This document shows, piece after piece, positions 13,623 to 33,185 of a stretch of 64,000 nucleotides of DNA. Source of the stretch: Longimicrobiales bacterium. Its GTDB lineage: Bacteria; Gemmatimonadota; Gemmatimonadetes; Longimicrobiales; Gaopeijiaceae. Location of the stretch: positions 2,740,501 to 2,804,500 of the forward strand of contig OX638356.1 of the NCBI GenBank assembly GCA_951813395.1, in the 5' to 3' direction. Position 1 is the stretch's first letter. Every line of letters begins with the position of its first letter. The position numbers and the translations under genes were made by a program. The notes under the pieces were generated by a model, which was given only the letters and a program-made list of their open reading frames with translations, was not told the DNA's origin and did no database searches.

Positions 13623-14764
13623 CCTACCACCTCGACGACGGGGTCGCGGTCGAGCGCTTCACCGAACCGTCGCTCAGGGCGTTCGCCGAAACGGTGCTGC
13701 GGGCGCTGGGCGCGACGGAGGAGGAGGCGCGCATCAACGCCGACGGCGTGATCACCGCGTCATTGTGGTGGCATCCCGGACAGGGACAGGGGCTCGAGAA
13801 GCTGTTTCGCTACGCTCGGCGGATGCGAAACGGCGGGATCCGGCCGAATGCCGAGATGTCATGGGTGCGGGAGTCGGCCGCGACGGCCCTGCTCGACGCC
13901 GGCAAGGGACTGGGGTACGTGGCGGCGCGCCGTGCGATGGACCGCGCGATCGAGATCGCGCGCCAAAGCGGCATTGCGATGGTGGCGGTGCGGCACAGCA
14001 ACCACTTCGGGATCGCGGGCTATCACGCCAAGCGCGCGGCCGACGCGGGCCTGATCGGGATCGCCATGACCAACGCGGGCGCGGAAATGGCTCCGTGGGG
14101 CGCCACGCGGCCGGTGCTGGGCACCAACCCCTGGGGAATCGCGGTACCACGCGGGGGGCGCGATCCCATCGTTCTCGACATGGCGCTGACCCAGTCCGGT
14201 AAGGGTATGATGCGGTGGCTGGAACGCGCCGGGCTGGCGATGCCCGATCACTGGGCGCTCACCCCCGACGGCGCCCGCACCACCGACCCCACCGCGGCGA
14301 TGGACGGTCCCATGCTCCCGATCGGCGACTACAAGGGCTACGGGCTCAGCCTCGTCACCGACATCCTCACCGGTGTCTTGACGGGCTCGCTCTTCGGGAG
14401 GCAGGTATTCCAGGATGATCTCGACTACGACGTCGCCCACACGATGATCGCGATCGACACGGACGCGTTCATGCCGAAGCCGCAATTCGATGAGCGGCTG
14501 GAGGCGCTGGTCGCGGAGGTGCTGGCAGCGCCGCCGATCGACCCTGACCGCCCCGTGCAGCTTCCCGGTGCAGCCGAGCAGCGGCGTGCGCGGGAACGGT
14601 CGCGGCGCGGGATCCCGGTCGACCGCAAGACGGTGGCGGGGCTGCGCGAACTCGCCGCCGAGTTGGGGGTGCCGTGGTCGTTCCGTGCGGTACAAGCCAC
14701 CGTGTCACCACGCGGGGATGTGCCGGGCGGTCACCGCGACGAATCGCAACCGATGGAGGAATGA
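13619..14764 (+). CDS. Ldh-family (malate/L-lactate/ureidoglycolate) dehydrogenase, probable CTG start
   Basis: NAD(P)-dependent oxidoreductase of the Ldh_2 family (fold unrelated to classic MDH/LDH), which oxidises malate, L-lactate, ureidoglycolate or sulfolactate. Visible motifs are RHSNHFGIAGYHAKRA (catalytic His region), LGTNPWGIAVP, PIVLDMALTQSGKG and GDYKGYGLSLVTDIL. The first in-frame ATG/GTG/TTG is GTG 13694, which would cut off conserved N-terminal sequence (VERFTEPSLRAFAETVLRALG). The only near-cognate start that keeps it is CTG 13619, which overlaps the upstream stop as CTGA, the same arrangement as the ATGA/TTGA overlaps before it. The 381-residue product fits the family's usual size. 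The 3' end overlaps the next start (ATGA). Family certain, start inferred. Confidence 0.85.
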   Translation: MTYHLDDGVAVERFTEPSLRAFAETVLRALGATEEEARINADGVITASLWWHPGQGQGLEKLFRYARRMRNGGIRPNAEMSWVRESAATALLDAGKGLGYVAARRAMDRAIEIARQSGIAMVAVRHSNHFGIAGYHAKRAADAGLIGIAMTNAGAEMAPWGATRPVLGTNPWGIAVPRGGRDPIVLDMALTQSGKGMMRWLERAGLAMPDHWALTPDGARTTDPTAAMDGPMLPIGDYKGYGLSLVTDILTGVLTGSLFGRQVFQDDLDYDVAHTMIAIDTDAFMPKPQFDERLEALVAEVLAAPPIDPDRPVQLPGAAEQRRARERSRRGIPVDRKTVAGLRELAAELGVPWSFRAVQATVSPRGDVPGGHRDESQPMEE

Positions 14765-15780
14765 TGCCGGACGTGTTCTCGGTTGGGACGGCCAGGGCGG
14801 CCAGCGGTACGCACGCCAGAGGCGCGATCCCGGTGGGTCTCGACCCCTCCGGGCGGATGCGCGAGATCCCGGTCCTGATCTGCCGGGGTGAGGCGGACGG
14901 TCCTGTCCTCTGGATCAATGGAGCGACGCATGGAGATGAGCCCGAGGGCGCGCTGTCCATTTTCAAGCTCTTCGAGGACCTGCGGCCGGACGAGCTGCGC
15001 GGGACGGTGGTCGGCGTTCCGGCCATGAACGTCCCCGCGTTCGAGGCCGGGAAGCGCGGCGATCCGCTGGACACGTTTTCGCACGACATGAACCGGATTT
15101 ATCCCGGCAGCGCCGACGGCTACCCTACCGAGCGGGCGGCGTGGGCGCACTGGGAGGCGATGCGCGACGCCTGCGACCTGCAGATCGCGATCCACTCCGG
15201 CGGCGAGCACTCGTACCTGGCCCACATGATCTTCGCGGCCGACAATCCGCCCAGCCTGGAGCTCGCGGCGGCGATGGGTCCGCAGTGGGACCTGGTGTTT
15301 CGGAGCGGTGTCGGCGGCGCCAACCCGTCGTCGAAGATCGCCGAGCGCGGCAAGGCGGGGATCACCGTCGAACTCGGCGGCAACTGTCGCACGCTGACCG
15401 CGGATTTTCATGCGGTGGCTGAGGATTTGGCGGGAAGCTACGCGAACGTAATGCGGCACTATGGCATGCTCGACGGCCACGCGCGCTACGCGGGGCGCCT
15501 GCGGATGGGCCACCAACGGGCGCTGCTGGCGCCTGCCTCCGGAATGTGGGTCGGAAGCGCGGACGTGCCCTTCGAAACGGAGATTCCCGCCGGGACGCCG
15601 CTGGGGCGCGTTTACGATCTCTACGGCGACGTTCAGGCCGAGGTCGTCGCACCCGCCGACGGGGTCGTGTTCGGGCTGCGCTCCCGTCCGTCCGTGCTGG
15701 CGGGCGAGTGGTGCTGCTTCTTCGGGATTATCGAGGAGGTGCGGGAGAACCGGCCTGCTACGGCAGCGTCGCCGGGCTGA
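14761..15780 (+). CDS. Succinylglutamate desuccinylase/aspartoacylase-family zinc amidohydrolase
   Basis: 339 residues from ATG 14761, which overlaps the previous stop. It belongs to the AstE/AspA family of M14-like zinc carboxypeptidase folds that remove acyl groups from N-acyl amino acids. NGATHGDEPEG gives the first zinc ligands (His, Glu), SHDMNRIYPG is the substrate Arg/Asn block, and LQIAIHSGG supplies the third zinc His. KAGITVELGGN and a C-terminal beta domain (IPAGTPLGRVYDLYGD) follow. It may deacylate N-acylated or cyclic products made by neighbouring amidohydrolases. Its last 23 bp overlap, tail to tail, the hydantoinase gene on the other strand. Confidence 0.82.
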   Translation: MMPDVFSVGTARAASGTHARGAIPVGLDPSGRMREIPVLICRGEADGPVLWINGATHGDEPEGALSIFKLFEDLRPDELRGTVVGVPAMNVPAFEAGKRGDPLDTFSHDMNRIYPGSADGYPTERAAWAHWEAMRDACDLQIAIHSGGEHSYLAHMIFAADNPPSLELAAAMGPQWDLVFRSGVGGANPSSKIAERGKAGITVELGGNCRTLTADFHAVAEDLAGSYANVMRHYGMLDGHARYAGRLRMGHQRALLAPASGMWVGSADVPFETEIPAGTPLGRVYDLYGDVQAEVVAPADGVVFGLRSRPSVLAGEWCCFFGIIEEVRENRPATAASPG

Positions 15781-17191
15781 TCGCGCTGCGGGCCGCCCGC
15801 CTGCCCCTGCCCCGCTCGGCCACCGCCTCGCCCCCGTCCACGATCACTTCGCCGCGTGACAGGGTCCAGGTGGGGAAGCCGCTGACTCGCATCCCCTGAA
15901 ACGGACTGTAGTCCACGGCCGAGTGGAGCGCCGCCGCGTCGATCACGACCTCGGCATCCGGATCGACCACGATCAGGTCGCCGTCCGCGCCCACGTCGAG
16001 CGTGCCCTTGCGCGGATGGAGGCCGAAGATGCGCGCCGGGTTTGTGGCGGCAAGCTCCACGAACCGCTGCGGCGAGATCCGACCGGTCTTGACGCCGTAG
16101 GTGAACAGCAGGGGCAGCCGGGTCTCGATGCCCGGCAGGCCGTTCGGAATGCGGGTGAAGTTGCCGCGCCCCGTCGTCTTCTGGTCGTGGTACCGGAAGG
16201 GCGCGTGATCCGAGGATACCTGCTGAATCGAACCGGCTTCGAGCGCGGTCCACAGCGCATCGCGATGGTCGACGGTTCGCATCGGGGGGCTGCAGACGAA
16301 CTTCGCCACCTCGAACCCGCCCTCGGCGTCGTAGACCGAGTCATCGAGGACGAGGTACTGCGGACAGGTCTCGGCAACCACCGGGGCCCCCGCGGCCCGG
16401 GCCTCGGCGACGTGCCGCGCCGCGCCCGCCGACGTCACGTGCGCAATACACAGGGGCGCGTCGACGAGTCGGGCCAGCATGATGGCCCGCTGCGTCGCCT
16501 CGGCCTCTACCTCCGGCGGCCGGCTGGGGGCATGGAACGCGGGGCCGGTCTTGCCGGCCGCAAGGTGACGCTCGATCAGCCAGGTGACGGCGCAATCGTT
16601 CTCGCAGTGGGCATACACAAGCCCCCCGTTGGCGCCGCCGACCTCCAGCAGCCGCAACAGCCCGGCATCGTCGACGATCTTGTCTCCGTAGGTCATGTAA
16701 ACCTTGAAGGATGGAAACCCATCTTCAATCAGAACAGGTATTTCATCCATCACTTCCTCACGTACGTCCGTAACGATGGTGTGGAAGCTGTAGTCGATGA
16801 TGGCGTCGGGTTCGATCTCGGCGAGACGGCGGTCGCGGGCGTGCAGCATCGACTCGCCGCGGCGCTGGAGGGAGAAGTCGACTATTGCGGTGACGCCCCC
16901 GCACGCGGCCGCGACCGTGCCCGTGTGAAAGTCGTCGGCGGTGGTGATTCCGAGCCGGTCGATGGGATGGGCGAGGTGCGTGTGCGTGTCGATCCCGCCG
17001 GGCATCACCCAGTGGCCGCGCGCGTCGAGGATGCGGGCACCGCGACGCTCGAACGTCTGGTGGTCGAACCCGCCGCCGGACGGCGAATCCGGCACGATCG
17101 CCGCGATGCGCCCCTCCTCGATGAGCACGTCGGCGCGCTCCATGCGGTCGGCGGTGACGATCGTGCCGCCCTTGATGAGGATATCGGTCAT
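15758..17191 (-). CDS. Dihydropyrimidinase/D-hydantoinase
   Basis: 477 residues from ATG 17191, which overlaps the upstream aminotransferase stop (ATGA). Cyclic-amidohydrolase TIM barrel with a binuclear zinc site: DTHTHLAHP (His70, His72), the lysine to be carboxylated in FPSFKVYMTYG (Lys163), YAHCEND, LCIAHVTSAG and the Asp in VSSDHAPF. The enzyme opens hydantoins, dihydropyrimidines or related cyclic ureides to N-carbamoyl acids. As last gene of a six-gene minus-strand operon with aminotransferase, dehydrogenases and a membrane protein, it probably serves breakdown of a cyclised or N-carbamoylated amino acid. Allantoinase or another ureide hydrolase remains possible. Confidence 0.87.
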   Translation of the reverse strand: MTDILIKGGTIVTADRMERADVLIEEGRIAAIVPDSPSGGGFDHQTFERRGARILDARGHWVMPGGIDTHTHLAHPIDRLGITTADDFHTGTVAAACGGVTAIVDFSLQRRGESMLHARDRRLAEIEPDAIIDYSFHTIVTDVREEVMDEIPVLIEDGFPSFKVYMTYGDKIVDDAGLLRLLEVGGANGGLVYAHCENDCAVTWLIERHLAAGKTGPAFHAPSRPPEVEAEATQRAIMLARLVDAPLCIAHVTSAGAARHVAEARAAGAPVVAETCPQYLVLDDSVYDAEGGFEVAKFVCSPPMRTVDHRDALWTALEAGSIQQVSSDHAPFRYHDQKTTGRGNFTRIPNGLPGIETRLPLLFTYGVKTGRISPQRFVELAATNPARIFGLHPRKGTLDVGADGDLIVVDPDAEVVIDAAALHSAVDYSPFQGMRVSGFPTWTLSRGEVIVDGGEAVAERGRGRRAARSAISPATLP

Positions 17192-18366
17192 GGCTCCAGC
17201 TTGTTGGTGAAGTCTTCGATTCGTTCCATCGCCTCGTGGATCCGTGCCTCCGGGGCGAGCAGCGAGACGCGCACCCAGCCGCGCCACCGCTCCCCGAAGG
17301 AGTTCCCCGGGAACATGAGCACGCCCGCTTCGTCGAGCAGCCGGTAGCAGAATGTCTCGGCGTCCATGCCCCAGCGGGAAACATCGGCCCACATGAACAG
17401 CCCTCCCCCGTGCGGGCCGTGTGGAATGCCCGCCCGCGCGAATCCGGCCATCAGGGCGCGGCGCCTGGCCCGGTAGCGCGACTGGAAGGCCGGGCGCGGA
17501 TCGGGGTCCGCGTCGAGCGCGGCGAGCGCAGCGTACTGCGAGAACGACGGGCAGGGGCCCGAGGTCGTGCTCTTGATCGCCTCGACGGCATCGATGAACG
17601 CGGCCGGCCCGATCAGGTAGCCCACCCGGAAGCCCGTCATCGCGTAGGCTTTGGAGAAGCCCGAGAGCACCACGCCCCGGTTGCGGGCGCCCTCGGCGGA
17701 CAGGAAGGAGAGGAAGGGTTCGTCGCCGAACACGACATCCTCGTAGATCTCGTCGGAGAGAACGACAAGGCCGAGCTCGGCGGCGGCCCGCGCGATCGCG
17801 TGCACGCCGGCGGGCGCGACGCAGGAGCCGGTGGGGTTGGAGGGATTGACGAAGACGAGAATCCTTGCACCCCGGGCCCTCTGTCGCAGATCGTCGCCGT
17901 CCAGGTGGAACGGCAGATCTCCGCCCGTGGGAACGGGCACGATCTCGCCGCCCGCGACCCCGATCGCCTGGTCGTACGAGCTGTAGCGCGGGTCCTGGCA
18001 GGCAACCCGGTCACCCGGGTCGACCAGGGCCAGCATGGCCAGGAACAGCCCCTCCTGGGCACCGTTCGTGATGGCGATCTCGGTGGCGGGGTCCACCGCC
18101 ACTCCGCGCTCGCGGGCGTAGCGCGCGGCGATGCCCTCGCGTAGCGACCGCAGGCCTCGCACCGGACCCGGACCGTCGCGGGGTGCTCCGGCCGCGAAGC
18201 GGGCGAGGCCGCCCTCGATGATGGCGGCGGGTGTGTCGAGATCGGGGTCGCCGCGTCCCAGCGAGATGACGTCGGAGCGGGCACGCGCCAGGGCCATCAT
18301 CCGGTAGCGGAGCGAGGTGGCCCGTTCTCCCTTGCGACGGGCGGCGCGGCCGGCGTCGGGTTTCAC
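17188..18366 (-). CDS. PLP-dependent class I/II aminotransferase
   Basis: 392 residues from GTG 18366, which overlaps the stop of the gene before it (GTGA). Fold type I aminotransferase with all hallmarks: ISLGRGDPDLDTP near the start, ITNGAQEGLFLAML, VFVNPSNPTGSCV, LSDEIYEDVVF (PLP-binding Asp and Tyr) and the Schiff-base lysine in [17 protein letters not shown], then WVRVSLLAPE with the substrate-carboxylate Arg. It resembles aspartate/aromatic aminotransferases, and a similar enzyme lies at 26624-27808. The preceding, translationally coupled gene encodes a shortened, lysine-less relative, an unusual pairing. Confidence 0.9.
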   Translation of the reverse strand: MKPDAGRAARRKGERATSLRYRMMALARARSDVISLGRGDPDLDTPAAIIEGGLARFAAGAPRDGPGPVRGLRSLREGIAARYARERGVAVDPATEIAITNGAQEGLFLAMLALVDPGDRVACQDPRYSSYDQAIGVAGGEIVPVPTGGDLPFHLDGDDLRQRARGARILVFVNPSNPTGSCVAPAGVHAIARAAAELGLVVLSDEIYEDVVFGDEPFLSFLSAEGARNRGVVLSGFSKAYAMTGFRVGYLIGPAAFIDAVEAIKSTTSGPCPSFSQYAALAALDADPDPRPAFQSRYRARRRALMAGFARAGIPHGPHGGGLFMWADVSRWGMDAETFCYRLLDEAGVLMFPGNSFGERWRGWVRVSLLAPEARIHEAMERIEDFTNKLEP

Positions 18367-19037
18367 GGCCTCGCTCCCAGAACCCACAGCGCCGCCCTCT
18401 GGGACGGGGCCGGCGAGCAGATGGACGAGGCCTGCTTCCACCTGGTGATACCGGACAGGGTCTCGGGTGCCGCGGCGACGAAGCCGAGACGGAACGGGCG
18501 CATCGCGCCGAGTCCGTCGAGCGAGCCGATGACGATGCCCGATTCATGGCCGGCGGACGCGGACGCGGGCAGGCCGTGCGGATCATCGGCGCGGAACAGA
18601 CGATCTCCGACGACATCGACCCAGGGCGCCGGAGCCGGGCCCGCGACTGGCGGTTCACTCCTGCCGATTCCCGCCCACGCGAGCAGGGCGTCGTGACGGT
18701 TCAAGCGCCCGCCGAGGACCCGAACCTCTACGCCGGAGCCCTGGGCCAACAGCGTCACGAAGAGCGACTCCCCTTCACCGGCCGTGATCAGGACGCCGTC
18801 GGGACCGCGCTCGGGGTACCCGATGCTCGGAAGAGCCAGCCCGACGAGGCGCCGCAGCTCCAGCATGCCCGGGCGGTCCGGATAGTGCGTCTCGCCCGCG
18901 AGCAGGTGGTGGCGCAGGCTGTCGAGCAGGCCCGGCGTCGGGACGGGCGCCGCACTGTCGACCGCACCGAGGCCGCGACACGCGTCCAGCGCCGTGCGAG
19001 CGCGCCAGGACAACCCCGACTCCACCGCCCCCTTCAC
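18363..19037 (-). CDS. Degenerate aminotransferase-like protein (pseudoenzyme?)
   Basis: 224 residues from GTG 19037, overlapping the SDR stop upstream and the true aminotransferase start downstream by four bases each. The N-terminal half resembles the first part of class I aminotransferases (THYPDRPGMLELRRLVGLAL, VLITAGEGESLFVTLLAQG). A later stretch resembles the cofactor-lysine region and the following helix (GSLDGLGAMRPFRLGFVAA, then WKQASSICSPAPSQRAAL). The usual SK(A/x)(F/Y)AM is DGLGAM here, so the Schiff-base lysine is gone, and the NPxNPTG and DE(I/V)Y blocks are missing, making it about 170 residues short. The frame is intact and fully coupled, so it is more likely a translated non-catalytic protein than a recent pseudogene. 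Function unknown. Confidence 0.6.
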   Translation of the reverse strand: MKGAVESGLSWRARTALDACRGLGAVDSAAPVPTPGLLDSLRHHLLAGETHYPDRPGMLELRRLVGLALPSIGYPERGPDGVLITAGEGESLFVTLLAQGSGVEVRVLGGRLNRHDALLAWAGIGRSEPPVAGPAPAPWVDVVGDRLFRADDPHGLPASASAGHESGIVIGSLDGLGAMRPFRLGFVAAAPETLSGITRWKQASSICSPAPSQRAALWVLGARP

Positions 19038-19861
19038 GGCCCGCTCTCCGGCCCGTACTCGGCGACCTCACCCGCGCGGCGAACGACGCCCTCCGGCCCC
19101 CACCTCTCCAGGGCCTGCGTGAGGACATGCGCGTCGAAGCGGCGCCCGGTCACCTCACCACGCAACCCGGCCAGAAACACGAAGGCGGGCGCCAGCTGCG
19201 CGGGATCCTCCCAGCGCGCCCGGGTCGCAGCGTCTTGCCGCTCCGCGTAGCGGCGCGTGAGCGAAGTCGGCTTGAGGTGGATCCCCGGCGTGACCGCGTT
19301 CACGCTCACCTGGGTCCCGGCCAATTCAAGAGCGAGACAGCGCGTGAACGCTTCAATCCCGAACTTCGACGCGCAGTACGCCGTCTGCGCCGCGAATCCC
19401 TCGACCCCTGCCCGGGACGACACGTTCACCACCGAGCCGCCGTTCTCCTGCAGCATCGGGAGCAGGTCGCGCGTCAGGAAGACCGGCGCTTCCAGATTCA
19501 CGCGCATCGTGCGGTCCCAGTGCGCCCGGTCAAGCGCCTCGATCGGCCGCCGCTCGAGCACGCCGGCGTTGTTGACAATGACACGCAGGTTGTCGGCTTC
19601 GCGAGCGACTCGCCGCACCAGGCGGTCGCGTCCATTCCGGCGCGACAGGTCGGCCACGCAGACCCCCGCCCGCCCGCCCGCCGCACGGATCCGCGCGGCG
19701 GTCCACTCGAGTTCTTCCGCCACCTCCGCCGCCAGCAATACTCGCGCACCCGCCGCCGCAAGTGCGGCCGCGACGCCGCTCCCCAGTCCGCGCCCGGCGC
19801 CCGTGACGAGCACGTCAACGCCCTTGACGCTTTCAACGCGGTTAGGTTGGACCGGATGCAT
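19034..19861 (-). CDS. Short-chain dehydrogenase/reductase (SDR)
   Basis: 275 residues. Classical SDR Rossmann fold: cofactor loop VTGAGRGLGSGVA, VADLSRR, NNAG motif in VIVNNAGVLERRP, catalytic Ser in VVNVSSRAG, and YCASK (Tyr-xxx-Lys) followed by VSVNAVTPGIHL. It oxidises or reduces an alcohol/ketone with NAD(P). It sits between the DUF819 membrane protein (16-bp gap) and the aminotransferase-like gene (4-bp overlap) in the minus operon. It could supply or consume a keto acid for the aminotransferase; the substrate is not predictable. Confidence 0.88.
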   Translation of the reverse strand: MHPVQPNRVESVKGVDVLVTGAGRGLGSGVAAALAAAGARVLLAAEVAEELEWTAARIRAAGGRAGVCVADLSRRNGRDRLVRRVAREADNLRVIVNNAGVLERRPIEALDRAHWDRTMRVNLEAPVFLTRDLLPMLQENGGSVVNVSSRAGVEGFAAQTAYCASKFGIEAFTRCLALELAGTQVSVNAVTPGIHLKPTSLTRRYAERQDAATRARWEDPAQLAPAFVFLAGLRGEVTGRRFDAHVLTQALERWGPEGVVRRAGEVAEYGPESGP

Positions 19862-19877
19862 CGCCTCGCTGCCAGCC

Positions 19878-21107
19878 TCAGCCCAGCAATGCGCTCACGA
19901 ATCGGGCGCACGCGAAGCCCAGGTAGTTCCCCAGTGCATACCCGAAGATCCCGACGATCACCGCAGGCGCCACCAGCCTGTGCCACTTCATCGCCATGCC
20001 GATCGCAAGCGCCGATCCCGGCCCGCCGATCGCCGCCTGGCTTGCGATGGAGACCGTGGGAAGGTCGATGCGGAACAGCCACCCCAGCCCGTACGCGAGG
20101 GCGACGTGGATGCCGATGATCGCAATCATGAAGCTGAAGATGGGCACGCCGGCGTCGACCACCGTCGCAAGATCGGAGGCCGCCCCCAGCGCGATGAAGA
20201 AGATGTGCAGCGCGAAGTAGGAGAGCACTTCGGCGCCCCGCAGCCGCCTGACCCACGGCAGTTGAGCCACGATGAGCGCGATGGTGGTAAGCCACAGCAC
20301 TTCCGGCACTTCGCTCAGGAACTTGACCAGTGCGTACAGCGGCGCAGTATCCGGCATGGTGGCGAGTGGCTGGCCAAAGGCATTGCTGACGAGGCGCGCC
20401 ACCCACAGGGCCGCGAGAGGGAGCGCACCCAGAACGGCGAAGTCGGTGATGCTGATGTCCGTATCGGTCCAGCGGCGACGCAAGGCCTCTTCGTCGGGCA
20501 CCTGTTCGTCGTCTCCGCCGGGGCCCCCGGACGGAACAGAAGCCCGGCCCGGACCACAGCGGCGCAGGAACATTGCGGCCAGCACCCCCGCCAGCCACAC
20601 CTGCAGCAGGAGATAGGGCACCGTGGACAGGTTGTCGGCCAGGGCCGCTGCGGCGAAGGTGCTCGGCTCGACCTCAAGCCCCTGGCCCACGGCTGCGAAG
20701 TTCATACCGCCGCCCGCGAAGGCCGCCGAGAACGCCCCGGCCAGTTTCCATGTCTCGGGACCGACCCATCCCGCCATGGTCGCGCCCGCCACCGCACCCC
20801 CGACAAGGCTGCCCCCGCAGGCCACGAGATAGGCGACCAGCAGCGGCCGCCCCGCATGGGCAAGCTCCTTCATGTGCGTCCCCATGATCACGAGCACGAT
20901 CGCGTAGGGGATCGCGAACGTGAACACGCCCTCGTGCACCGGCCCCGTGTGCTCGATCACGCCCACGTTTGCCAACGTGATTCCGAGCAGCGTGCACACC
21001 ACCGCGGAGCTGATCTTCCTGATCGGCTCGTAGCGCTCCTCGAGCCAGCGCGCAAACGCCACCACGGCCAGCATGAACGCCAGGACCAGTACGGGTTCTC
21101 GTATCAT
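19878..21107 (-). CDS. DUF819 (YjcL-like) multipass membrane protein
   Basis: 409 residues with about ten hydrophobic segments and a charged loop in the middle (DDEQVPDEEALRRRWTDTD). The two glycine-rich repeats AAFAGGGMNFAAVGQGL and SQAAIGGPGSALAIGMA, with GIFGYALGNYLGF near the end, identify the DUF819 family of putative secondary transporters or permeases. Its place between a 2-hydroxyacid dehydrogenase (4-bp overlap) and an SDR in a catabolic operon suggests uptake or export of the organic acid or amino acid handled by that operon. No member has a firmly established substrate, so the transport role is inference. Confidence 0.82.
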   Translation of the reverse strand: MIREPVLVLAFMLAVVAFARWLEERYEPIRKISSAVVCTLLGITLANVGVIEHTGPVHEGVFTFAIPYAIVLVIMGTHMKELAHAGRPLLVAYLVACGGSLVGGAVAGATMAGWVGPETWKLAGAFSAAFAGGGMNFAAVGQGLEVEPSTFAAAALADNLSTVPYLLLQVWLAGVLAAMFLRRCGPGRASVPSGGPGGDDEQVPDEEALRRRWTDTDISITDFAVLGALPLAALWVARLVSNAFGQPLATMPDTAPLYALVKFLSEVPEVLWLTTIALIVAQLPWVRRLRGAEVLSYFALHIFFIALGAASDLATVVDAGVPIFSFMIAIIGIHVALAYGLGWLFRIDLPTVSIASQAAIGGPGSALAIGMAMKWHRLVAPAVIVGIFGYALGNYLGFACARFVSALLG

Positions 21108-22141
21108 GACGTTCTCGTGGCAGCGGCCAGGTTCGTGACGATGTCCCGCGCCATTCCGGCCTGTCCCCCGCCGGTGCCGCCGCCCACGTGTGGCGAGAGA
21201 AGCACGTTGGGGGCGTCGAGCAGCGGGTTGCCCTCCGGCAGCGGCTCGTCGACGAACACGTCCAGTCCGGCGCCCGCAATCCGCCCGTCCCCGAGCGCGT
21301 CGACCAGCGCGGCCTCGTCGACCAGGCCGCCGCGGGCGGTGTTGATCAGGATCGCGTCGGTCCTCATGAGGCGTAGCGCGTCAGCGTCGATCATCTCCTC
21401 GGTGTGTTCCGTGTGCGGAGCATGAAGGCTGACCACATCGCTTTTCGCGAGCAGCTCCTCGAAGGGGAGGTAGCGCACGCCCGCCATGGCCTCGTATTCG
21501 CGCGGCAGCCGCGAGCGCTTGCAGTAGACCACGTTCATGTCGAACGCCTGGGCGCGGCGGGCGACTTCGAGGCCGATACCGCCCAATCCCACGAGGCCGA
21601 GGACCCTGCCGTGAAGCTGGTGGACGTCCGGATAGCCCAGCCAGTTGAAGGCGATCTTCCGTTCGGTCGTCCGGACCGGCTCGACGCCCAGGGACCTGTA
21701 GGCGGCATCGCGCGTCCCGAGATGGCCCGGGACGAGCTTCCGATAGAGGCCCAGCATGAGCGCGATGGTCTGTTCGGCGACCGCGATCGCACCGCGGTGC
21801 GGCAGGACCGACACGGGAACGTCCGCGGCCGCCGCGGCTTCCATGTCCACCGCCCAGGGCGCCCGCCCCTGCACCTGAATCAGCCGGAGCCGGGGCACGG
21901 CCTTGATGAGCTCGCCCCCGATCCGGCGCGTGGCGGTCAACAGCGCATCCGCGCCCGCGGCCGCGTGCACGAGCTCCGCGCCATCCAGCTCGTCTCCCCA
22001 GACGAATTGGATGCCGGCTTCGTCCGCCGTGCGTTGAAAGAGGGCGCGGATCCAGTCCGCCAGAGGCTCGATGTGGAGGGCTCGCAATGGGGTAACGACG
22101 GGTTGAAGTGGACTGAAACGGCGACGGAAGTTATAACCCAT
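21104..22141 (-). CDS. D-2-hydroxyacid dehydrogenase
   Basis: NAD-dependent enzyme of the D-isomer-specific 2-hydroxyacid dehydrogenase family, interconverting 2-keto and D-2-hydroxy acids. Seen: Rossmann motif LVGLGGIGLEVARRA, SLHAPHT, catalytic Arg in INTARGGLVDE, Glu in VFVDEPLPEGNPLL and the His in LLSPHVGGGT. ATG 22141 gives 345 residues, but the first ~18 have no counterpart in the family. TTG 22087 (before RALHIEPLADW) would match better, and ATG 22141 overlaps the divergent ATG at 22140. Neither has a clear ribosome site. First gene of the six-gene minus operon. Confidence 0.86.
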   Translation of the reverse strand: MGYNFRRRFSPLQPVVTPLRALHIEPLADWIRALFQRTADEAGIQFVWGDELDGAELVHAAAGADALLTATRRIGGELIKAVPRLRLIQVQGRAPWAVDMEAAAAADVPVSVLPHRGAIAVAEQTIALMLGLYRKLVPGHLGTRDAAYRSLGVEPVRTTERKIAFNWLGYPDVHQLHGRVLGLVGLGGIGLEVARRAQAFDMNVVYCKRSRLPREYEAMAGVRYLPFEELLAKSDVVSLHAPHTEHTEEMIDADALRLMRTDAILINTARGGLVDEAALVDALGDGRIAGAGLDVFVDEPLPEGNPLLDAPNVLLSPHVGGGTGGGQAGMARDIVTNLAAATRTS

Positions 22142-22427
22142 GACAATGGACCGCCGACAGTTCACCGCATCCGCCGCCACCGGCGCAGGCGCCATGGCCC
22201 TGCTGTGGCAGCAAGCCTGCACAGAGGTTGCGGACACCGGCGAGGTCTCCGCCGAAACCGCTCGCACGCTCCTCGATCATCAGGGGCCGCGCGGCATCTA
22301 CGAAACCGCCGAGGAGCTGGACCGCCTCAGGGCCGCGCTCGCCAACATGATCAACGTGCAGCGCCAGTTGCGCGAGTTTCCCCTGGACCCGGACGAGCCA
22401 CCCCTCACCGTGTTCTGGAGGGGCTGA
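22140..22427 (+). CDS. Tat signal and N-terminal part of an amidase, cut off by an in-frame TGA
   Basis: 95 residues beginning MTMDRRQFTASAATGAG, a twin-arginine signal, followed by a helical segment (ELDRLRAALANMINVQRQLREFPLDPDEPP) of the kind that precedes the catalytic domain in Tat-exported amidases. It stops at TGA 22425-22427. The very next in-frame codons continue into the amidase catalytic domain, which has its own GTG start two codons later. Homology therefore suggests one original gene. Either a stop mutation or sequencing error separates the two parts, or they are now two coupled polypeptides. On its own this piece has no enzymatic motif. Confidence 0.6.
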   Translation: MTMDRRQFTASAATGAGAMALLWQQACTEVADTGEVSAETARTLLDHQGPRGIYETAEELDRLRAALANMINVQRQLREFPLDPDEPPLTVFWRG

Positions 22428-23805
22428 CAGGTGCAGGAAGACATCCTCTTCCTCACGGTGAGGGAACTCGCCGACCTCCTGGAGAGCGGCGCGGTCACCT
22501 CCGTCGACCTCACGCAGGCCTACCTTGACCGTGCGGACGCGCTCGACGTCCCCCCGTTCGACCTGCCCAGCGAGCCGCGCACGGATCACGACGGCAAGCT
22601 CGCCACCATGGTCACGATCGCGCGCGACCACGCGCTCGATGCCGCCGAGCGCGCCGACGCCGAACTCGCCGCGGGGCGCCGCCGCGGCATCCTGCACGGG
22701 ATTCCCTACGGCGTGAAGGACCTGCTCGACACGCGCGGCATCCGCACCACGTGGGGATCGGGGATCTTCCGGGACCGCGTCCCGGACCGGAACGCCGCCG
22801 TGATCGACCGGCTGGAAGACGCCGGCGCGGTCATGATGGCCAAGATGTCTCTGGGCGAGTTCGCCGGCGGCAACACCAGTTCCGCGCTCAATCCGTGGAA
22901 GCTCGACCGCACCAGCTTCGGGTCGTCGAGCGGCACGGTGTCGGCGGCGGTGGCGGGGCTGATCGGCTTCGGCATCGGCACCGAGACGGGCGGCTCGATC
23001 GTCTTCCCGGCCTCCGCCGTCGGCGCGTCCGGTCTGCGCCCCACGTTCGGCCGCGTGAGCCGCTTCGGCTGCATGGCGCTGTCGTGGAGCCTGGACAAGA
23101 TCGGCCCCGTCGGCCGCTCGGCCGAGGACTGCGGGCACGTCCTGCAGGAGATCGCGGCGCACGATCCGCGCGACAACGCCACCGTCGACCGCCCCTTCGC
23201 CTTCCGCCCGGACCCGGGCCCGATGCGCGGCCGCCGCCTGGGCGTCCACCGGGCCGAGTTCGAGCTGTCGGGTTCCGAAGACACCCGCCGCGTCTTCCAG
23301 GAGGCGCTCGACGTCTTCGCGCAGATGGGGGTCGAGGTCGAGGACATCGAACTGCCGTTGCGGCCCACGGGCGCCCTCTTCACGACCATCGTCACGGTCG
23401 AGAGCGGCACCAACTTCAAGTCGCTCTTCGACGACGGCCGCGCCGCCGGGATGTTCTCGTTCAACGAGGACCGGCGCGCCGGCTGGATGGCCGGCCGCAT
23501 GATGCCCGCCGCCGACTACCTGACCGCCCAGCGGATCCGCAACCAGCTGGTGCGGGAAGCCGACGAGATCCTGTCGCGCTACGACGCGGTGATCGCCCCC
23601 ACGTGGCCCAACGGCGCCGCGATGCGGGAGGTGCGCGACGGCTGGCCGATTCCTGCGCGCAACGAGTGGGAGCCGCCCGGGGAGGTCAGCGCGCGCACCC
23701 CCCGGCTCAACTACATCGCCAACCTGGTCGGGCACCCCGGCCTGGCGATTCCGTGCGGCTTCGACGAGGACGGCCTGCCGCTGTCGCTGCAGATCGTGGG
23801 CTCGC

Positions 23806-25517
<1,712 letters not shown>

Positions 25518-25521
<4 letters not shown>

Positions 25522-26627
25522 CGGGCCGGTGCCCGCGGCGGCGCGAAGCGGTCCCGCAGCTCGGCGATCGCCACCCATCGCCCGCTCTCCAGCGACTCCA
25601 TGCAGCCATGCACCAGGAGGAGGGTCTCCAGGTGATCGCCGGCTGTAGTCACAGGATCGGACTCCCCGTGAATGGCCCCCAGGAACTCGGCGAGAAGCGC
25701 CCGTGTGTCGTCCACGAACGGCACACAGGGCTCGAGCGGCTCGGCGACCGGCGTCTCGGCGTCGGCATCGCTCTTGAAGTTGGGCCCGCGCAGCCCCAGC
25801 CCGCGATCGAAGTCCACGCGCACGAGATCCTCGAACTGCTCGCGCTGAATGAGTGCGCCGCGCTCGAAATCGCTGCGCCAGCGGAAGTCCATCCGGTTCC
25901 ACGCCGCCGTCCAGGTGCCCAGATAGTTCGCGCGCACCCCGTTCTCGAAGCGGAAAAGGACCGACACGCAGCAGTCGCCCTCGTAGGTGCTCCACGATGG
26001 CCGCCACGTGTCGCACACCAGCGAATCGACCTCCGCGCCGTAGCAATGCCGCAGCAGGTCGAAGTGGTGGATGCTCTGCTCCAGCAGCATGGGGTGCGCC
26101 ATCGACATGACGTAGTCGTTCAGGTCGTCCCTGTTGCCGTCGCGCTGTCTGTTGTAGGTGAAGTGCGCATGACTCAACGCGCCCAGCTCCCCGGTGCGCA
26201 CGGTGCGCCGGATCCGCTGCGACGAGGGGAGGTAGCGGAAGTTCATCCCGACGAGGAGGTGGCGCCCGGCCGCGTCCGCCCGCGCGATCAGGTCGGCGAC
26301 TTCGCCGAGGTCCTCCGAGAGCGGCTTCTCGCACAGCACGTGGAGGCCGTGGGCCAGGGCGCGGCTGACGAGGCCGTGATGGGTGGCGGGCGGGGTCGCG
26401 ATGACGACGGCGTCCGCCCGGGCTTCGGAGCCGACCAGCCCTGCGGCGAAATCGGGCGCGACGAGGGCCCCCGGGGCGTGATCGTCGCGGGCGCGCCGGG
26501 CCCGTGCTTCGTCGTGGTCCATGATCCCGGCCAGCGTCGCGTCGGGGGCTTCGGCGATGACGCGCGCCCACATGGTCCCGCGTACGCCGGCGCCGACGAG
26601 GAGGATGCGGATGGGGTCCCGGCTCAC
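25518..26627 (-). CDS. Gfo/Idh/MocA-family oxidoreductase
   Basis: 369 residues from GTG 26627 (GTGA overlap). N-terminal Rossmann domain with [17 protein letters not shown] and [14 protein letters not shown], then the conserved lysine in [17 protein letters not shown] and GMNFRYLPS, followed by the alpha/beta substrate domain with [13 protein letters not shown]. Family members oxidise or reduce sugars, inositols, amino sugars or related polyols with NAD(P). It lies inside the peptide-transporter operon between the aminotransferase and the ATPase, so it probably acts on an imported amino-sugar-like or amino-acid-like ligand. Confidence 0.88.
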
Positions 26628-27808
26628 GACGGCGCAGCCGTTCGCGCCCCGCGCACCCGTGCGACAAAGCGCGCCATCCGCGTCAGCGCCTCCTCCATGG
26701 ACTCGAACGCCGACAGCAGCGTGATCCGGATGTGGCGGTTCGCCGGGTCGGCGAACATCGTGCCGGGAAAGACCATGACCTGTTCCCGGCGCAGCAGTTC
26801 GAGACAGAAGGTCTCGGCGTCCAGCCCCGTGCTGGAGATGTTCGCGTAGACGTACATCCCGCCGCCGGGGCGTCCGTACGAGATGCCCATCTCGTCGAGG
26901 CGGCGGAGCACGAGAGCGAGCCGCCGCTCATACTCGGCCAGCATCGAGGCGACCGCCGCGTCACCCGTCTCGAGGGCCGCCAGCGCCCCGCGCTGCAGGG
27001 CCGGCGGCGTGCAGATGCTCAGCGTGTGCTTGATCTCGACGGCCGACTCCATCATCCAGGCGGGCGCCGCGAGATAGCCCACGCGCCACCCGGTCATCGC
27101 GTACGCCTTGGAGAAGCCGTTCACGGTGACGGTGCGTTCGAGCATTCCGTCGAGGGCGCCCATGCTCACGTGTTCGGCGCCGCCTAAGATCAGCTTCTCG
27201 TAGATCTCGTCGGAAATGACCAGGAGGTCGTGCTCCACGGCCAGCCGGGCGATGCGCTCAAGTTCCCCGCGCGGGGTCAGTCCGCCGGTGGGGTTGTTCG
27301 GGTTCGCGATCACCAGGAGCTTCGAGCGCTCGGTGAGGACCTCGCGAATGGCGTCGGCCCTGAGCGCGTAGTCGTCCCCTTCGAGCGTCGGCACGTCCAC
27401 GATCCGGCCGCCCGCCAGCTTGACCATGTAGTCGAAGGCGTTGAAGCGCGGGGCCTGGAGGACGACCTCATCACCGGGATCGACCAGGGCCAGGATCGAG
27501 ATCAGGAGCGCTTCCTGGGCGCCGTTGGTGACGATGACCTGGTCGGCCGAATACTTAACATTATTGTTAAGTTTCAGCTGAAACGCGATCGCTTCGCGGA
27601 GTTCCGGGAGTCCCGGAGGCGGGCTGTAGTGGGTGTAGCCGCCGATCAGGGCGTCCGCGCCCGCCGCGACGATGGCGGGCGGCGTCTCGAAGTCCGGGTC
27701 GCCCCGGCCCAGCGCGATGATGTCGTCGAGCCCGCCGGCCAGTTCGAGCATGCGGGTGCGAAAGCTCGACTTCACGCTGACCGCGCGCGCGGCGAGGTGG
27801 GCGCTCAT
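26624..27808 (-). CDS. PLP-dependent class I/II aminotransferase
   Basis: 394 residues from ATG 27808, whose A is the last base of the previous stop (TGATG). All fold-type-I aminotransferase blocks are present: [58 protein letters not shown], the Schiff-base lysine in [17 protein letters not shown], and [10 protein letters not shown] near the end. It is closely similar to the enzyme at 17188-18366 in motif sequence. It probably transaminates a product released from the transported ligand. A short AT-rich patch (TTAACAATAATGTTAAG on the coding strand, near 27560) interrupts otherwise G+C-rich codon use. Confidence 0.9.
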
Positions 27809-29055
27809 CACACCCCCGGCCGCGAGTACAGGCAGCACCCGCGCACGAACGTCATCCGCACCCGCTCCAGGTCGCCCAGATCCTCCAGCGGGTTGCCGTC
27901 CACCACGATCACGTCCCCCTCCTTCCCCGCCTCCAGCGTGCCGATCCGGTCGTCCAGCCGGTTCATGATCGCGGCCTCCCGTGTCGCGCTCATGATCGCG
28001 GCGTGATTGTCGGCCACCACCCCCACCTCGATCATGAACTCCATCTCCGGGACCACCACGCCATGCCGCACCGCGGGACTCCCCGCGTCGGTCCCGAACA
28101 CGATGCGCACCCCGGCCCGTGCCGCCCGCAACAGGCCGTCGTAGCGGCTCCTGTCGGCGACCGCGTGCTGCCGCTCCCGGATCTTCCATTCGGGGATGTC
28201 GTACGTGCGCGCGACCTCGGGCTTCGACTGGATCACGACGGGCGAGAAGGTGGTGACGATCGGCACGCCCTTCTCCACCAGCTTGCCGATGGTCCGGTCC
28301 GACATGCTGCCGCCGTGTTCCACCGTGTCGACGCCAAAGTCCACGGCCCGCTCGATCGCCGCGTCGAAGGTGGCATGCGCGGTGATGGGCAGTCCGCTCC
28401 GGTGCGTCTCGTCGACGATGGCCTCGAGCTCCGCGTCGGTGAACTCCAGGAGGTCGTGGCACATCATGATCTTGATCAGGTCGGCGCCGTCCTTCACCTG
28501 ATCCCGCACCGCGCGCCGCATCTCGTCGGCGCCGGTGGCCTCGCGGCAGCACCAGTAGGTGTGGCCGCCCGTCTGCACTATCGCCTCGGCGCAGATCAGC
28601 AGGCGCGGACCCGCGAACACCCCCTGCTCCACGGCCTGCTTCGCGAACGCCCCGCTCCGGTTCATCCCCAGGTCGCGCACCAGCGTGATCCCGGCCCGCA
28701 GGTTCGCGAGCATGTTGGCCGCCGCCTTGTACGCGCTGATCTCGGGCGCGTCGTGCATGGACTGGGCGGCAAGGTCGTGGATGCCGTCCCATGCCAGGTG
28801 GGCGTGGCTGTTGATCAGGCCCGCCAGGATCGTTCCGCCCGCCGCGACGACCGCCCGACCCTCCCCCGCCGGGGCCCCCGCACCCCACGCCCCGACCGAC
28901 ACGATCCGCCCACCCGCCAGCGTGACGTGGCCGTCCTCGATCACCTCGTCCCCCACCCCCGTGATTACCCGGCCGCGGAGCGTGACCGATGCGGGTTCGC
29001 GCGGAGCCAGGTCCTGCAGGACCGGCTGAAACTTCCAGGCTGGTGCTTCGGGCAT
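27808..29055 (-). CDS. Amidohydrolase-family metal hydrolase
   Basis: 415 residues without a signal peptide, so cytoplasmic. Metal-dependent TIM barrel: first ligands in NSHAHLAWDG, bridging lysine in LIKIMMCHD, His in PITAHATFDAA and TVEHGGSM, catalytic Asp in IVFGTDAGSPAV, then the composite-domain end IGTLEAGKEGDVIVVDGNPL. It resembles the imidazolonepropionase-like/Xaa-Pro dipeptidase group. It sits 15 bp after the glycosidase-like gene and one base before the aminotransferase, suggesting it frees an amine- or carboxyl-bearing group from an imported compound which the aminotransferase then processes. Confidence 0.86.
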   Translation of the reverse strand: MPEAPAWKFQPVLQDLAPREPASVTLRGRVITGVGDEVIEDGHVTLAGGRIVSVGAWGAGAPAGEGRAVVAAGGTILAGLINSHAHLAWDGIHDLAAQSMHDAPEISAYKAAANMLANLRAGITLVRDLGMNRSGAFAKQAVEQGVFAGPRLLICAEAIVQTGGHTYWCCREATGADEMRRAVRDQVKDGADLIKIMMCHDLLEFTDAELEAIVDETHRSGLPITAHATFDAAIERAVDFGVDTVEHGGSMSDRTIGKLVEKGVPIVTTFSPVVIQSKPEVARTYDIPEWKIRERQHAVADRSRYDGLLRAARAGVRIVFGTDAGSPAVRHGVVVPEMEFMIEVGVVADNHAAIMSATREAAIMNRLDDRIGTLEAGKEGDVIVVDGNPLEDLGDLERVRMTFVRGCCLYSRPGV

Positions 29056-29070
29056 GCGAGTCTCCCTGCG

Positions 29071-30477
29071 TCAGATTCCGAGTTCCGCGAGCGCCCGGGC
29101 GCCGCCGTCGAGGTTGGTCAGGCGCATGCTCGCGTAGTTGGGCGAGTAGATCACGCCCGCCGCCCCCGCCCCATACGCCGCGTGCACGCTCTCGTACACG
29201 ATCTCCGGGGTGCACATCGCCTGGTCCGGGGTGGCGCGGGGCGCATCGACGCCGATCCCCATCAGCACGGGCAACTCGCCGTCCAGCGCTTCAATCGTCG
29301 CCCGGCACTGGCCGCCGACATACGTGGATGGGCGCATTCCCGCACCCATGAGCTCGTCCCACGGCGCCTCGTCGAGCCCCAGAATACGGTACATGATCGG
29401 CGTCATCCCGGCCGGGTCGAGGTCGCGCAGCAGCGTCGCGTGCAGCTGCTCCATCTCGCCCCGGTAGATCCCGCCGGACTGGTGCTGGTAGGTGATCGGC
29501 TTGACCCAGTCGGCATGATCCTTCGTCTCGGCCCACGGCCACTGCGCCTTGCGCAGCGGGTTGAAGTGATTGCGGTTCCACACGTTGAGCCCGAATTCGA
29601 GCGCCGGATCGCACCACTTGACGAGCCCGTACAGTTCGCGGTCCAGGTCCTTGTTGCGCCTGACCCAGTGCCGTTCGAGCAGCAGAAACTCGGGGTTCTC
29701 AAGAAGTGTGCGGAGCCCCGTGATCAGCGCGCCGTCCGCAAAGCGCTCGCCTGCCCGCGCGCGTCGGAAGTAGTTGTGGAGGAGGCCTGACGCCCGCCGC
29801 ACGGCTTCCGCGTCGATACCGCCGGCTCCCATGCTCGCCAAGCAGTGCCTGCAGAAGCACCCCGGAGCCATCCCGGCGACCAGCTGGTCGAGTGGGCTCC
29901 GCCTCTCGTTGCACCACATGATGCCGTCGATATCGTAGCTCCGGCAGTGGTCCTCGATGAGCGCGTGCCACCAGGTCCGGTAGTCCGGGTTCTCCAGGCA
30001 GGGCGCCCCGCCGATCCGGCCCAGGTAGTCCACCTCCATGTACTGGACCAGGTTGGGGATCTGCACGGTGTTGGCCGATCCGTGGCCCGCGTACTTGAAG
30101 AGCGGCTCCATGAGCTCCGGGATCACCTTCATCCCCCGCGCCCGGGCCCCGGGAATGACCATTTCCAGTATGTCGCGGTCCCGCATCCCCTCGTCCGGGG
30201 CGCGGAAGCCGGTGATCGAGGTGTTGCGGTAGAACTCGGGGTGGTCCGCCAGGTACGCGCCCCCCTGCACCTCCAGCGGCTCGGGCACCCCGTGGTCGGG
30301 CCACCCGTCGATCTTCCACGAGATGCTGCGCCCGATCTTGAGCCCCAGCCAGCTGACCGTGCCCAGCAGGATCGCGTTCACGCCCACGCGCTGCTGCAGG
30401 GTGTCGAGCACGGCGTCGACCCCCTCGTCCACGAAGCTGGCGGGCCCAATCTGCACCCCAACGAACCTGTCGCTCAT
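29071..30477 (-). CDS. Putative glycoside-hydrolase-like TIM-barrel protein
   Basis: 468 residues, no signal peptide. It starts FVGVQIGPASFVDEG and then shows a barrel with RGMKVIPELMEPLFKYAG, NPDYRTWWHALIEDHCRSYD and DGIMWCNERRSPLDQL (acidic residues where glycosidase catalytic carboxylates would be). It also has a cysteine pair (CFCRHCLAS) that many GHL-type hypothetical glycosidases carry, and YEGGAAGVIYSP-like closing strands (AAGVIYSPNYASMRL). The resemblance is to uncharacterised glycosyl-hydrolase-like proteins, and no classified GH family is evident. It begins two bases from the DppC-like permease stop, so it belongs to the transporter operon and probably acts on an imported glycoconjugate. 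Confidence 0.6.
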   Translation of the reverse strand: MSDRFVGVQIGPASFVDEGVDAVLDTLQQRVGVNAILLGTVSWLGLKIGRSISWKIDGWPDHGVPEPLEVQGGAYLADHPEFYRNTSITGFRAPDEGMRDRDILEMVIPGARARGMKVIPELMEPLFKYAGHGSANTVQIPNLVQYMEVDYLGRIGGAPCLENPDYRTWWHALIEDHCRSYDIDGIMWCNERRSPLDQLVAGMAPGCFCRHCLASMGAGGIDAEAVRRASGLLHNYFRRARAGERFADGALITGLRTLLENPEFLLLERHWVRRNKDLDRELYGLVKWCDPALEFGLNVWNRNHFNPLRKAQWPWAETKDHADWVKPITYQHQSGGIYRGEMEQLHATLLRDLDPAGMTPIMYRILGLDEAPWDELMGAGMRPSTYVGGQCRATIEALDGELPVLMGIGVDAPRATPDQAMCTPEIVYESVHAAYGAGAAGVIYSPNYASMRLTNLDGGARALAELGI

Positions 30478-30478
30478 C

Positions 30479-31303
30479 TCACCTCGCTTTCAGCCTCGGA
30501 TCCAGCATTTCCTGCAGGCTGTCGCCCAGAAGATTGGTGGCCATCACCACCGTGAATATGGCGAGTCCGGGGAAGGTCGAAATCCACCAGGCCCGTCCGA
30601 GCACGTCGCGCCCCACCGCAACCATGAGCCCCCACTCCGGCGTCGGCGGCTGCGCGCCCAGCCCGAGAAAGCTCAAGCCGGCGCCGACCGAAATGGCGTG
30701 CCCGAACTCGAGTGTGGAGAGCACGAGCAGCGGAATCGCCGTGTTGGGGAGCACGTGCCGGAGCATGATGCGGATGTCCCGCACCCCGATCAGCCGGGCC
30801 GCCTCGATGTAGGCCTGCTCGCGAACCGTAAGCACCGTGCTGCGCACCAGGCGCGCGTAGCGCGGTATCGTGGAGACGCCGACCGCGATCATGACGTTCG
30901 TGATGCTGGGCCCGAGCGCGGCGATCACGACGAGGGCGAGCAGGATGCCGGGGAAGGCGAGCATGGCGTCGACAACGCGCATGAGCACGGCATCGGCGGG
31001 GCCGCGGTAGTAGCCGGACACGAGACCCATCGCGGAACCGAGTGCCGCCCCGATGGCCACGCTGATGAACCCCAGCACGAGTGACACGCGCGCGGCCTGG
31101 ATGACACGGCTGAACACGTCCCGCCCGAGCCGGTCGGTCCCGAACCAGAACTCGGCCGAGGGGGCTTCGCGGGCGCCGGAGACGGTGGCCAGCGGGTCGT
31201 GGGGCGTGGCCGCGGGCGCCAGGAGCGCGATCAGGACCCAGCCCGCGAGGATCACCGCACCGACGATGAAGCCGGGAGACGGCCTGCGGCCCGCGATCCT
31301 CAT
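30479..31303 (-). CDS. Peptide-type ABC transporter permease (DppC-like)
   Basis: 274 residues with five to six transmembrane segments. It shows the DppC/OppC N-terminal motif FWFGTDRLGRDVFSRVI, the cytoplasmic coupling (EAA-like) loop YIEAARLIGVRDIRIMLRHVLPN and the tail GWGLM-type WGLMVAVGRDVLG before a last membrane helix. ATG 31303 overlaps the DppB-like stop (ATGA). With the DppB-like partner it forms the inner-membrane channel of the importer served by the fused ATPase at 23806-25521. Confidence 0.93.
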   Translation of the reverse strand: MRIAGRRPSPGFIVGAVILAGWVLIALLAPAATPHDPLATVSGAREAPSAEFWFGTDRLGRDVFSRVIQAARVSLVLGFISVAIGAALGSAMGLVSGYYRGPADAVLMRVVDAMLAFPGILLALVVIAALGPSITNVMIAVGVSTIPRYARLVRSTVLTVREQAYIEAARLIGVRDIRIMLRHVLPNTAIPLLVLSTLEFGHAISVGAGLSFLGLGAQPPTPEWGLMVAVGRDVLGRAWWISTFPGLAIFTVVMATNLLGDSLQEMLDPRLKAR

Positions 31304-32244: not shown

Positions 32245-32395
32245 GGGGGCGGCTGCTACCGGTCGGCTTTCCTTCGCCGGTCGATTCGGTGTGGCATGTC
32301 GGAAGTCTAGGTTGAAGCGAACTCGCCGCGCCATTGACGGGGCGCCTGAAACGGACAAAGGATTCCCCACACCACGTCAAAACCGGGAGGAGCTC

Positions 32396-33178: not shown

Positions 33179-33185
33179 CCTTCTG

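Follow-up and report, generated by a model that had tools for sequence, protein, structure and literature searches.

A putative two-gene aminotransferase with a truncated, lysine-less partner in a conserved hydantoinase operon of Gemmatimonadota

In aspartate aminotransferase (AspAT) the active site is shared between subunits (PMC6715241): as described in PMC6612543, a monomer contributes its Tyr70 equivalent to one active site and its Arg266 equivalent to the other, and both contact the phosphate of pyridoxal 5'-phosphate (PLP), and in the Plasmodium enzyme the mutation of both residues is reported to cost ~170-fold in activity. A division of such a site between two genes has been put forward for serine palmitoyltransferase (SPT), in which LCB1 is devoid of the lysine, LCB2 carries it, and a single active site is proposed (PMC3794620). 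Here, we analyse a 64,000-nucleotide stretch (hereafter the window; positions 2,740,501 to 2,804,500 of contig OX638356.1, assembly GCA_951813395.1, Longimicrobiales bacterium, Gemmatimonadota), centering on two adjacent genes of one operon, AT and ATshort, which resemble LCB1/LCB2 (SPTLC1/SPTLC2) in encoding two homologous PLP-fold proteins with the lysine in one of them. The LCB proteins are eukaryotic, membrane-bound members of the alpha-oxoamine synthase family, whereas the pair reported here is bacterial and AspAT-type, with the lysine-less partner cut to about half size; we thus consider that AT-ATshort would work in an analogous manner, without being a member of that family. A search of the open-licence literature (which covers few subscription journals) recovered no aminotransferase with a lysine-less partner subunit, be it described as heterodimeric, pseudoenzyme or SPT-like.

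Reciprocal losses in AT and ATshort

The proteins compared in this section are encoded at the following positions of the window:

17188..18366, minus strand: AT, full-length class I aminotransferase (PF00155, 217 bits, gathering cut-off 19.7), proposed catalytic subunit
18363..19037, minus strand: ATshort, 224-aa truncated class I aminotransferase relative (identified by residues, profile and model), proposed non-catalytic partner subunit
26624..27811, minus strand: AT2, paralogue with the Lys and the THY loop, in a neighbouring operon outside the six-gene one, used as comparison protein

Residue numbers (70, 194, 222, 225, 258, 266 and 386) follow the AspAT convention by motif alignment, in a mapping that we partly take as given. 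All 22 distinct AT sequences keep the phosphate-loop Asn and Gly, together with the equivalents of N194, D222, Y225, K258, R266 and R386, and none of them (0/22) has a Tyr in the Tyr70-type loop (loop length 8-18). The same-chain Tyr70 equivalent, which a self-sufficient homodimer needs, is therefore missing from AT. Among the 19 PF00155 matches of the window's own genome, the loop could be read in ten besides AT, with the Tyr in the same column in nine (L100, L101, L103-L107, L110 and L112) and one column off in L109, so that AT is the only readable member without it; eight matches are left out of this statement (L108, L113-L115, L117 and L118, all below 15 bits; L116, which gave no row; L111, in which the loop did not align). 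AT2 carries both the THY motif and the Lys and is presumably an ordinary homodimer. The best NCBIfam score of AT was registered for the guanitoxin PLP cyclodehydratase GntC (NF041364), at 264.6 bits far under the cut-off of 415; nothing points to the GntC reaction, and an assignment as guanitoxin-type GntC was rejected.

ATshort (224 aa) gave no Pfam match at E 0.001, does not reach the PF00155 gathering cut-off, and by profile comparison is a distant match to class I aminotransferases at best (2z61, E 8.3e-11). Its AlphaFold2 model, built from 21 sequences (pLDDT 75.9, pTM 0.73), aligns through residues 58-206 with residues 70-265 of an AspAT large domain (T. thermophilus mutant 5bj3_A; Z 11.5, root-mean-square deviation 3.2, 136 aligned), and the matches listed by Foldseek are also aminotransferase-fold proteins. 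The C-terminal domain is absent, the NPxNPTG and DEIYE segments are either lost or too altered to recognise, and SxSKAY is replaced by SLDG, SLHG or SLSS. Across 23 distinct sequences the Lys258 position never holds a Lys (20 Gly, 3 Ser) and the Arg266 position is occupied by Arg (11), Ser (9) or Asp (3), while the THYP loop, whose Tyr is the Tyr70 equivalent, is present in every one. Of the ten sequences recovered independently of motif searches, one is the window's own and nine came by way of DUF819; THYP and WKQASSIC occur in all ten, the lysine in none. A preliminary description of this DNA had counted aminotransferases in the plural; its assignments of a hydantoinase, an SDR, a D-hydroxyacid dehydrogenase, DUF819 and one aminotransferase stand, whereas the second proves to be a lysine-less half protein. 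Compared with the class I homodimers (1j32, 1dju, T. thermophilus AspAT), AT can be aligned along most of the chain (215.8 bits to 1j32) and ATshort matches their large domain, yet the Lys258 and Tyr70 equivalents, united in one chain there, lie here on separate proteins.

The ratio of non-synonymous to synonymous substitution rates (dN/dS), summed over 11 pairs, is 0.10 in the THYP block of ATshort, 0.11 in its C-terminal block and 0.44 in the middle; by this measure the two retained blocks are under strong purifying selection. Whole-gene values range from 0.16 to 0.77 in ATshort as against 0.04-0.20 in AT, and are higher in ATshort in all 11 comparable pairs (one ATshort pair with saturated dS gives no value). 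Further, 57 columns are invariant over 21 ATshort sequences, 20 of which had been found by means of two motifs. The two genes also travel together: AT was present in 11 of 59 genomes (E < 1e-200) and ATshort in the same 11, with no ATshort match at E 1e-20 in the other 48 (up to 47 candidates scored), and in all 29 loci with both (22 distinct AT sequences) they are adjacent and on the same strand.

The alignments thus record lysine loss and Tyr retention in ATshort, along with co-occurrence, adjacency and purifying selection, and at this level the losses are reciprocal: AT has lost the Tyr that ATshort keeps, and ATshort the lysine that AT keeps. As each protein lacks what the other retains, an obligate heterodimer would be expected, and we consider it likely that AT and ATshort form one with a single working active site, the operon's aminotransferase being split over two genes. 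In such an assembly AT would supply the PLP lysine and the same-subunit residues, and ATshort, a degenerate truncated paralogue, would keep the large-domain interface, including the Tyr for its partner's PLP phosphate. The loop of AT would face a dead site and be free to decay, while that of ATshort would face the live one and remain fixed. We also favour, with a little more reserve, the reading that the truncated lysine-less subunit of this class I aminotransferase exists only to donate its cross-interface Tyr loop and, jointly with it, that complementary degeneration led to the fixation of a half-site enzyme within a single bacterial family. Physical association and catalysis of the pair are what we infer from these sequence patterns.

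Several points weigh against the heterodimer. A homodimer of AT may be functional even though Tyr70 is missing. Confidence in the ATshort model is intermediate (its variable middle region being poorly modelled), the gene sits on a long branch in the tree, and three close pairs have whole-gene dN/dS values of 0.47-0.77. The invariance of the motifs among the 22 named loci described below is partly built in (the search that recovered them used WKQASSIC and GETHYP[DA]R as patterns), all 22 bear titles of metagenome-assembled genomes (MAGs), and in genome G005 the operon is perhaps interrupted just 5' of ATshort.

Two other explanations of ATshort were considered. It could have a regulatory or scaffolding function, bound to AT or to a different enzyme of the operon without completing the active site; pseudo-subunits often regulate, and a regulatory insert might account for the long variable middle, but the Tyr70 loop kept in ATshort and lost in AT would go unexplained, and we find this unlikely. 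That ATshort is a decaying pseudogene or duplication leftover beside a homodimeric AT would agree with its truncation, missing lysine, long branch and consistently higher dN/dS, but is made very improbable by its selection pattern (ratios of ~0.1 in both retained blocks and the 57 invariant columns, with the motif caveat given above), by the retention of its open frame and place in the operon across three genera, and by the loss in 22/22 AT sequences of the loop that an AT homodimer would need. That ATshort arose from AT by a recent tandem duplication was rejected: in a tree of 13 background proteins, 10 AT and 10 ATshort, the latter stand apart from AT, by AT2 (support only 42), on the long branch.

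Layout and recurrence of the locus

The remaining genes of the operon and its flanks are:

21104..22141, minus strand: D2HDH, D-2-hydroxyacid dehydrogenase, first gene of the operon (PF02826, 191.2 bits)
19878..21107, minus strand: DUF819 membrane protein of the CPA/AT transporter clan (PF05684, 206 bits, above the gathering cut-off of 27)
19034..19861, minus strand: SDR-family oxidoreductase (PF00106, 173.6 bits)
15758..17191, minus strand: HYD, D-hydantoinase/dihydropyrimidinase-family amidohydrolase (TIGR02033, 529.5 bits, cut-off 393.25)
14761..15780, plus strand: AstE, succinylglutamate desuccinylase/aspartoacylase-family deacylase, start picked by eye (PF24827, 91.8 bits)
13694..14764, plus strand: Ldh2, malate/L-lactate/sulfolactate/ureidoglycolate-type dehydrogenase, start codon uncertain (PF02615, 354.9 bits)
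22140..22427, plus strand: 95-aa protein with a Tat/lipobox-like N-terminus (by eye), directly 5' of the amidase
22431..23900, plus strand: amidase-signature amidase, divergent from the operon (PF01425, 266.5 bits)

Six minus-strand open reading frames span 15758-22141 as a single operon in the order D2HDH-DUF819-SDR-ATshort-AT-HYD, and Pfam and NCBIfam profiles assign solid families to five of them (D2HDH, DUF819, SDR, AT and HYD). The preliminary description had reported a six-gene coupled operon with 4-bp overlaps at four of its five junctions, which the coordinates and junction sequences bear out: D2HDH/DUF819, SDR/ATshort, ATshort/AT and AT/HYD overlap by 4 bp, and DUF819/SDR, separated by a 16-bp gap, is the only junction that does not. 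The aspartoacylase-like gene was likewise rightly said to converge on the operon, since AstE ends at 15780 on the plus strand and HYD at 15758 on the minus strand; Ldh2 and AstE, both on the plus strand, overlap by 4 bp, so that the operon converges on an AstE-Ldh2 pair. The conserved block exceeds six genes, including Ldh2 and AstE on one side and the divergent small protein and amidase (22140-23900) on the other.

Gene starts at both edges call for some care. With its start placed at 22141, D2HDH runs into the ATG that opens the divergent gene (22140), and because most relatives align (tblastn) only from residue 11-19 onward (one from residue 4), the true start probably lies downstream. The frame of Ldh2 is open upstream of 13694 but holds no ATG, GTG or TTG, and its Pfam match begins at profile position 14; the real start may be a rarer codon. 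Homologues of the 95-aa protein (54-96% identity) precede the amidase in relatives (amidase identity 70-95%), and the copy scanned from one relative had no Pfam match.

The recurrence of the neighbourhood was followed through two of its genes. DUF819 orthologues (62-94% identity) were found in 11 of 97 relatives besides the window's own genome (98 genomes in all), and in 11/11 fetched stretches D2HDH, DUF819 and SDR stand in a row with DUF819 between the other two; HYD is also visible in eight, the remaining three stretches stopping at contig ends. The ATshort query, run as the two peptide patterns given above plus tblastn against a collection of 84,980 species genomes, recovered 22 named loci, of which 16 hold the six core genes in order and the other six (L058, L059, L061, L069, L071 and L073) run into contig ends. 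Their titles read Gemmatimonadetes/Gemmatimonadota (16), 'Gammaproteobacteria' (4), BD2-11 (1) and Longimicrobiales (1). Two of the 'Gammaproteobacteria' loci (L060 and L061) coincide in coordinates with G405 and G315, genomes placed in the window's own family, and these titles are probably mislabels. As the named loci (L053-L074) share contigs with loci from the genome searches, residues were counted on distinct sequences.

Among 395 sampled genomes of the phylum (seven best candidates scored per genome), ATshort occurred in 20, which belong to three genera of a single family; one more match was a weak 55-residue alignment. The gene order is held at protein identities of 39-77% in L070, L072 and L073 and, being kept in other species at such identities, its conservation exceeds chance. 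Thus, the neighbourhood, whose failure to recur in related genomes would have spoken against a metabolic unit, is repeated within one Gemmatimonadota family, and the earlier view of a coherent unit is upheld. What is conserved is the gene order rather than the 4-bp overlap: in the remaining 28 loci with both genes, 5-64 bp separate the aligned parts of ATshort and AT.

Insertions accompany this order in several relatives (drawn from L035-L040 and L060-L068), namely a 1-Cys peroxiredoxin lodged between AT and HYD, and an NCS2 xanthine-type permease with a TRAP transporter (DctPQM), in some joined by a PaaK-like ligase, in the interval from D2HDH to the amidase. In L059 (genome G005), ~1.1 kb 5' of ATshort (L059:1-1107) is unrelated sequence where SDR was expected and the start of ATshort is altered; the D2HDH-DUF819-SDR genes of this genome sit at the end of a different contig, and the break is either an insertion or an assembly join.

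The neighbouring operon that contains AT2 (window 23806-36280, its genes interpreted mostly by eye) holds an oligopeptide-type ABC transporter, a Gfo/Idh-type oxidoreductase, an amidohydrolase and a conserved 468-aa protein without clear family. AT2-type matches occur in all 11 AT-bearing genomes among the 59 searched; L154 is a further locus taken with this operon, a version of which adjoins PuuE-like and ureidoglycolate lyase genes in genome G027.

Hydantoinase, transporter and candidate pathways

Hydantoin utilisation operons combine a hydantoinase with a carbamoylase and a racemase. The present locus shares with them a D-hydantoinase-family enzyme and differs in having an AstE-type deacylase instead of a carbamoylase, none of which was recognised by Pfam and NCBIfam in the nine locus proteins scanned; elsewhere, the own genome encodes one gene of the TIGR01879 carbamoylase family (392 bits) and three CN_hydrolases. 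HYD passes the D-hydantoinase/dihydropyrimidinase model, misses the allantoinase one (TIGR03178, 254.1 bits against 357.85) and has the D-hydantoinase 1k1d as its closest PDB match, and is accordingly predicted to open the ring of hydantoins or dihydropyrimidines. No report of a hydantoinase with Gemmatimonadota and sponge was found in the open-licence literature.

In G027, which has no ATshort match, no AT at the orthologue level and a DUF819 of only 38% identity, HYD (67%) and AstE (74%) occur as a stand-alone convergent pair (L170:9376-11774, G027:C5). This suggests that the two are the core of the pathway and, since they stay paired where the operon is missing, puts AstE first among the candidates for the reaction that follows ring opening. 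We know of no carbamoyl-removing member of the AstE family. An identity as the N-acetyldiaminobutanoate deacetylase DoeB/EutE of ectoine degradation was rejected (TIGR02994, 89.6 bits, cut-off 402.7). On named plasmids, AstE relatives matched 566 records, of which five were looked at: three lie by oligopeptide or ectoine-type transporters, L178 is in a transporter block beside an amidohydrolase gene, L176 lacks such context, and no hydantoinase is annotated in the five (their gene table being incomplete).

The operon is probably a conserved catabolic unit for ring-shaped nitrogen compounds. As a tentative ordering of its steps, HYD would open a hydantoin- or dihydropyrimidine-like ring, AstE (or the amidase) would strip an N-acyl or N-carbamoyl group, AT-ATshort would transaminate the resulting amino acid to a 2-oxo acid, and D2HDH and Ldh2 (which we take to be of the types handling D- and L-2-hydroxy acids) would act on the 2-oxo/2-hydroxy acid, with DUF819 moving one of the pathway carboxylates.

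A purine/allantoin-type ureide pathway, itself compatible with the AT-ATshort heterodimer, would instead make HYD allantoinase-like, D2HDH a glyoxylate reductase and Ldh2 a ureidoglycolate dehydrogenase. The NCS2 permease that joins the locus in relatives fits this scheme, as do the PuuE allantoinase relative (362.6 bits, short of the 424.6 cut-off) and the ureidoglycolate lyase next to the AT2-type operon of G027, and D2HDH scores best in NCBIfam as a glyoxylate reductase (191.8 bits, under the cut-off of 455). However, HYD falls on the dihydropyrimidinase side of the two models, Ldh2 reaches 161.1 bits where AllD demands 496.2, and PuuE exceeds its cut-off in just one of 59 genomes, which is not the window's own; a purine route, once entertained as the leading explanation, was therefore demoted and now appears doubtful.

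The preliminary description had proposed a complete hydantoin route, in which a cyclic ureide enters through DUF819 and, after ring opening and transamination, is finally reduced to a D-2-hydroxy acid. It too is compatible with the heterodimer, and both gene content and order are conserved, but the lack of a carbamoylase among the nine locus proteins leaves it a putative route at most. Its import step fares poorly: PMC8396727 presents the clan of DUF819 (CPA/AT) as comprising carriers of ions and of carboxylates or amino acids, several relatives have NCS2 and TRAP transporters added to the locus, and ten further DUF819 loci show no relative of the present hydantoinase at E 1e-5 in the sequence retrieved. 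We hold this route to be unlikely.

Those ten loci place the same family in a different context, in which relatives of HYD, AT and SDR are all absent at the same threshold and over the same retrieved sequence; a D2HDH relative and an NCS2 relative occur in one locus each, and two loci lie by aconitase X genes. In the latter two (L047 and L051) the distant DUF819 genes also neighbour a PALP-family enzyme, a context that is possibly hydroxyproline-type. DUF819 had no match on named plasmids, and its predicted structure (pLDDT 42.7 from 18 similar sequences) was set aside. The suggestion that the neighbourhood would give DUF819 a substrate hypothesis holds insofar as the candidates are narrowed, though not to a single one, several relatives inserting NCS2 and TRAP transporters of their own. 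The always-linked orthologues of this DUF819 define as candidate substrates 2-oxo/2-hydroxy acids and N-acyl or N-carbamoyl amino acids.

Consequences for the aminotransferase family

We reason that the obligate AT-ATshort heterodimer, if true, would represent a natural case of active-site sharing by two genes within the aminotransferase family. Annotating ATshort as an 'aminotransferase' would then be misleading (as the protein would not be an enzyme), and AT assayed alone may look dead.

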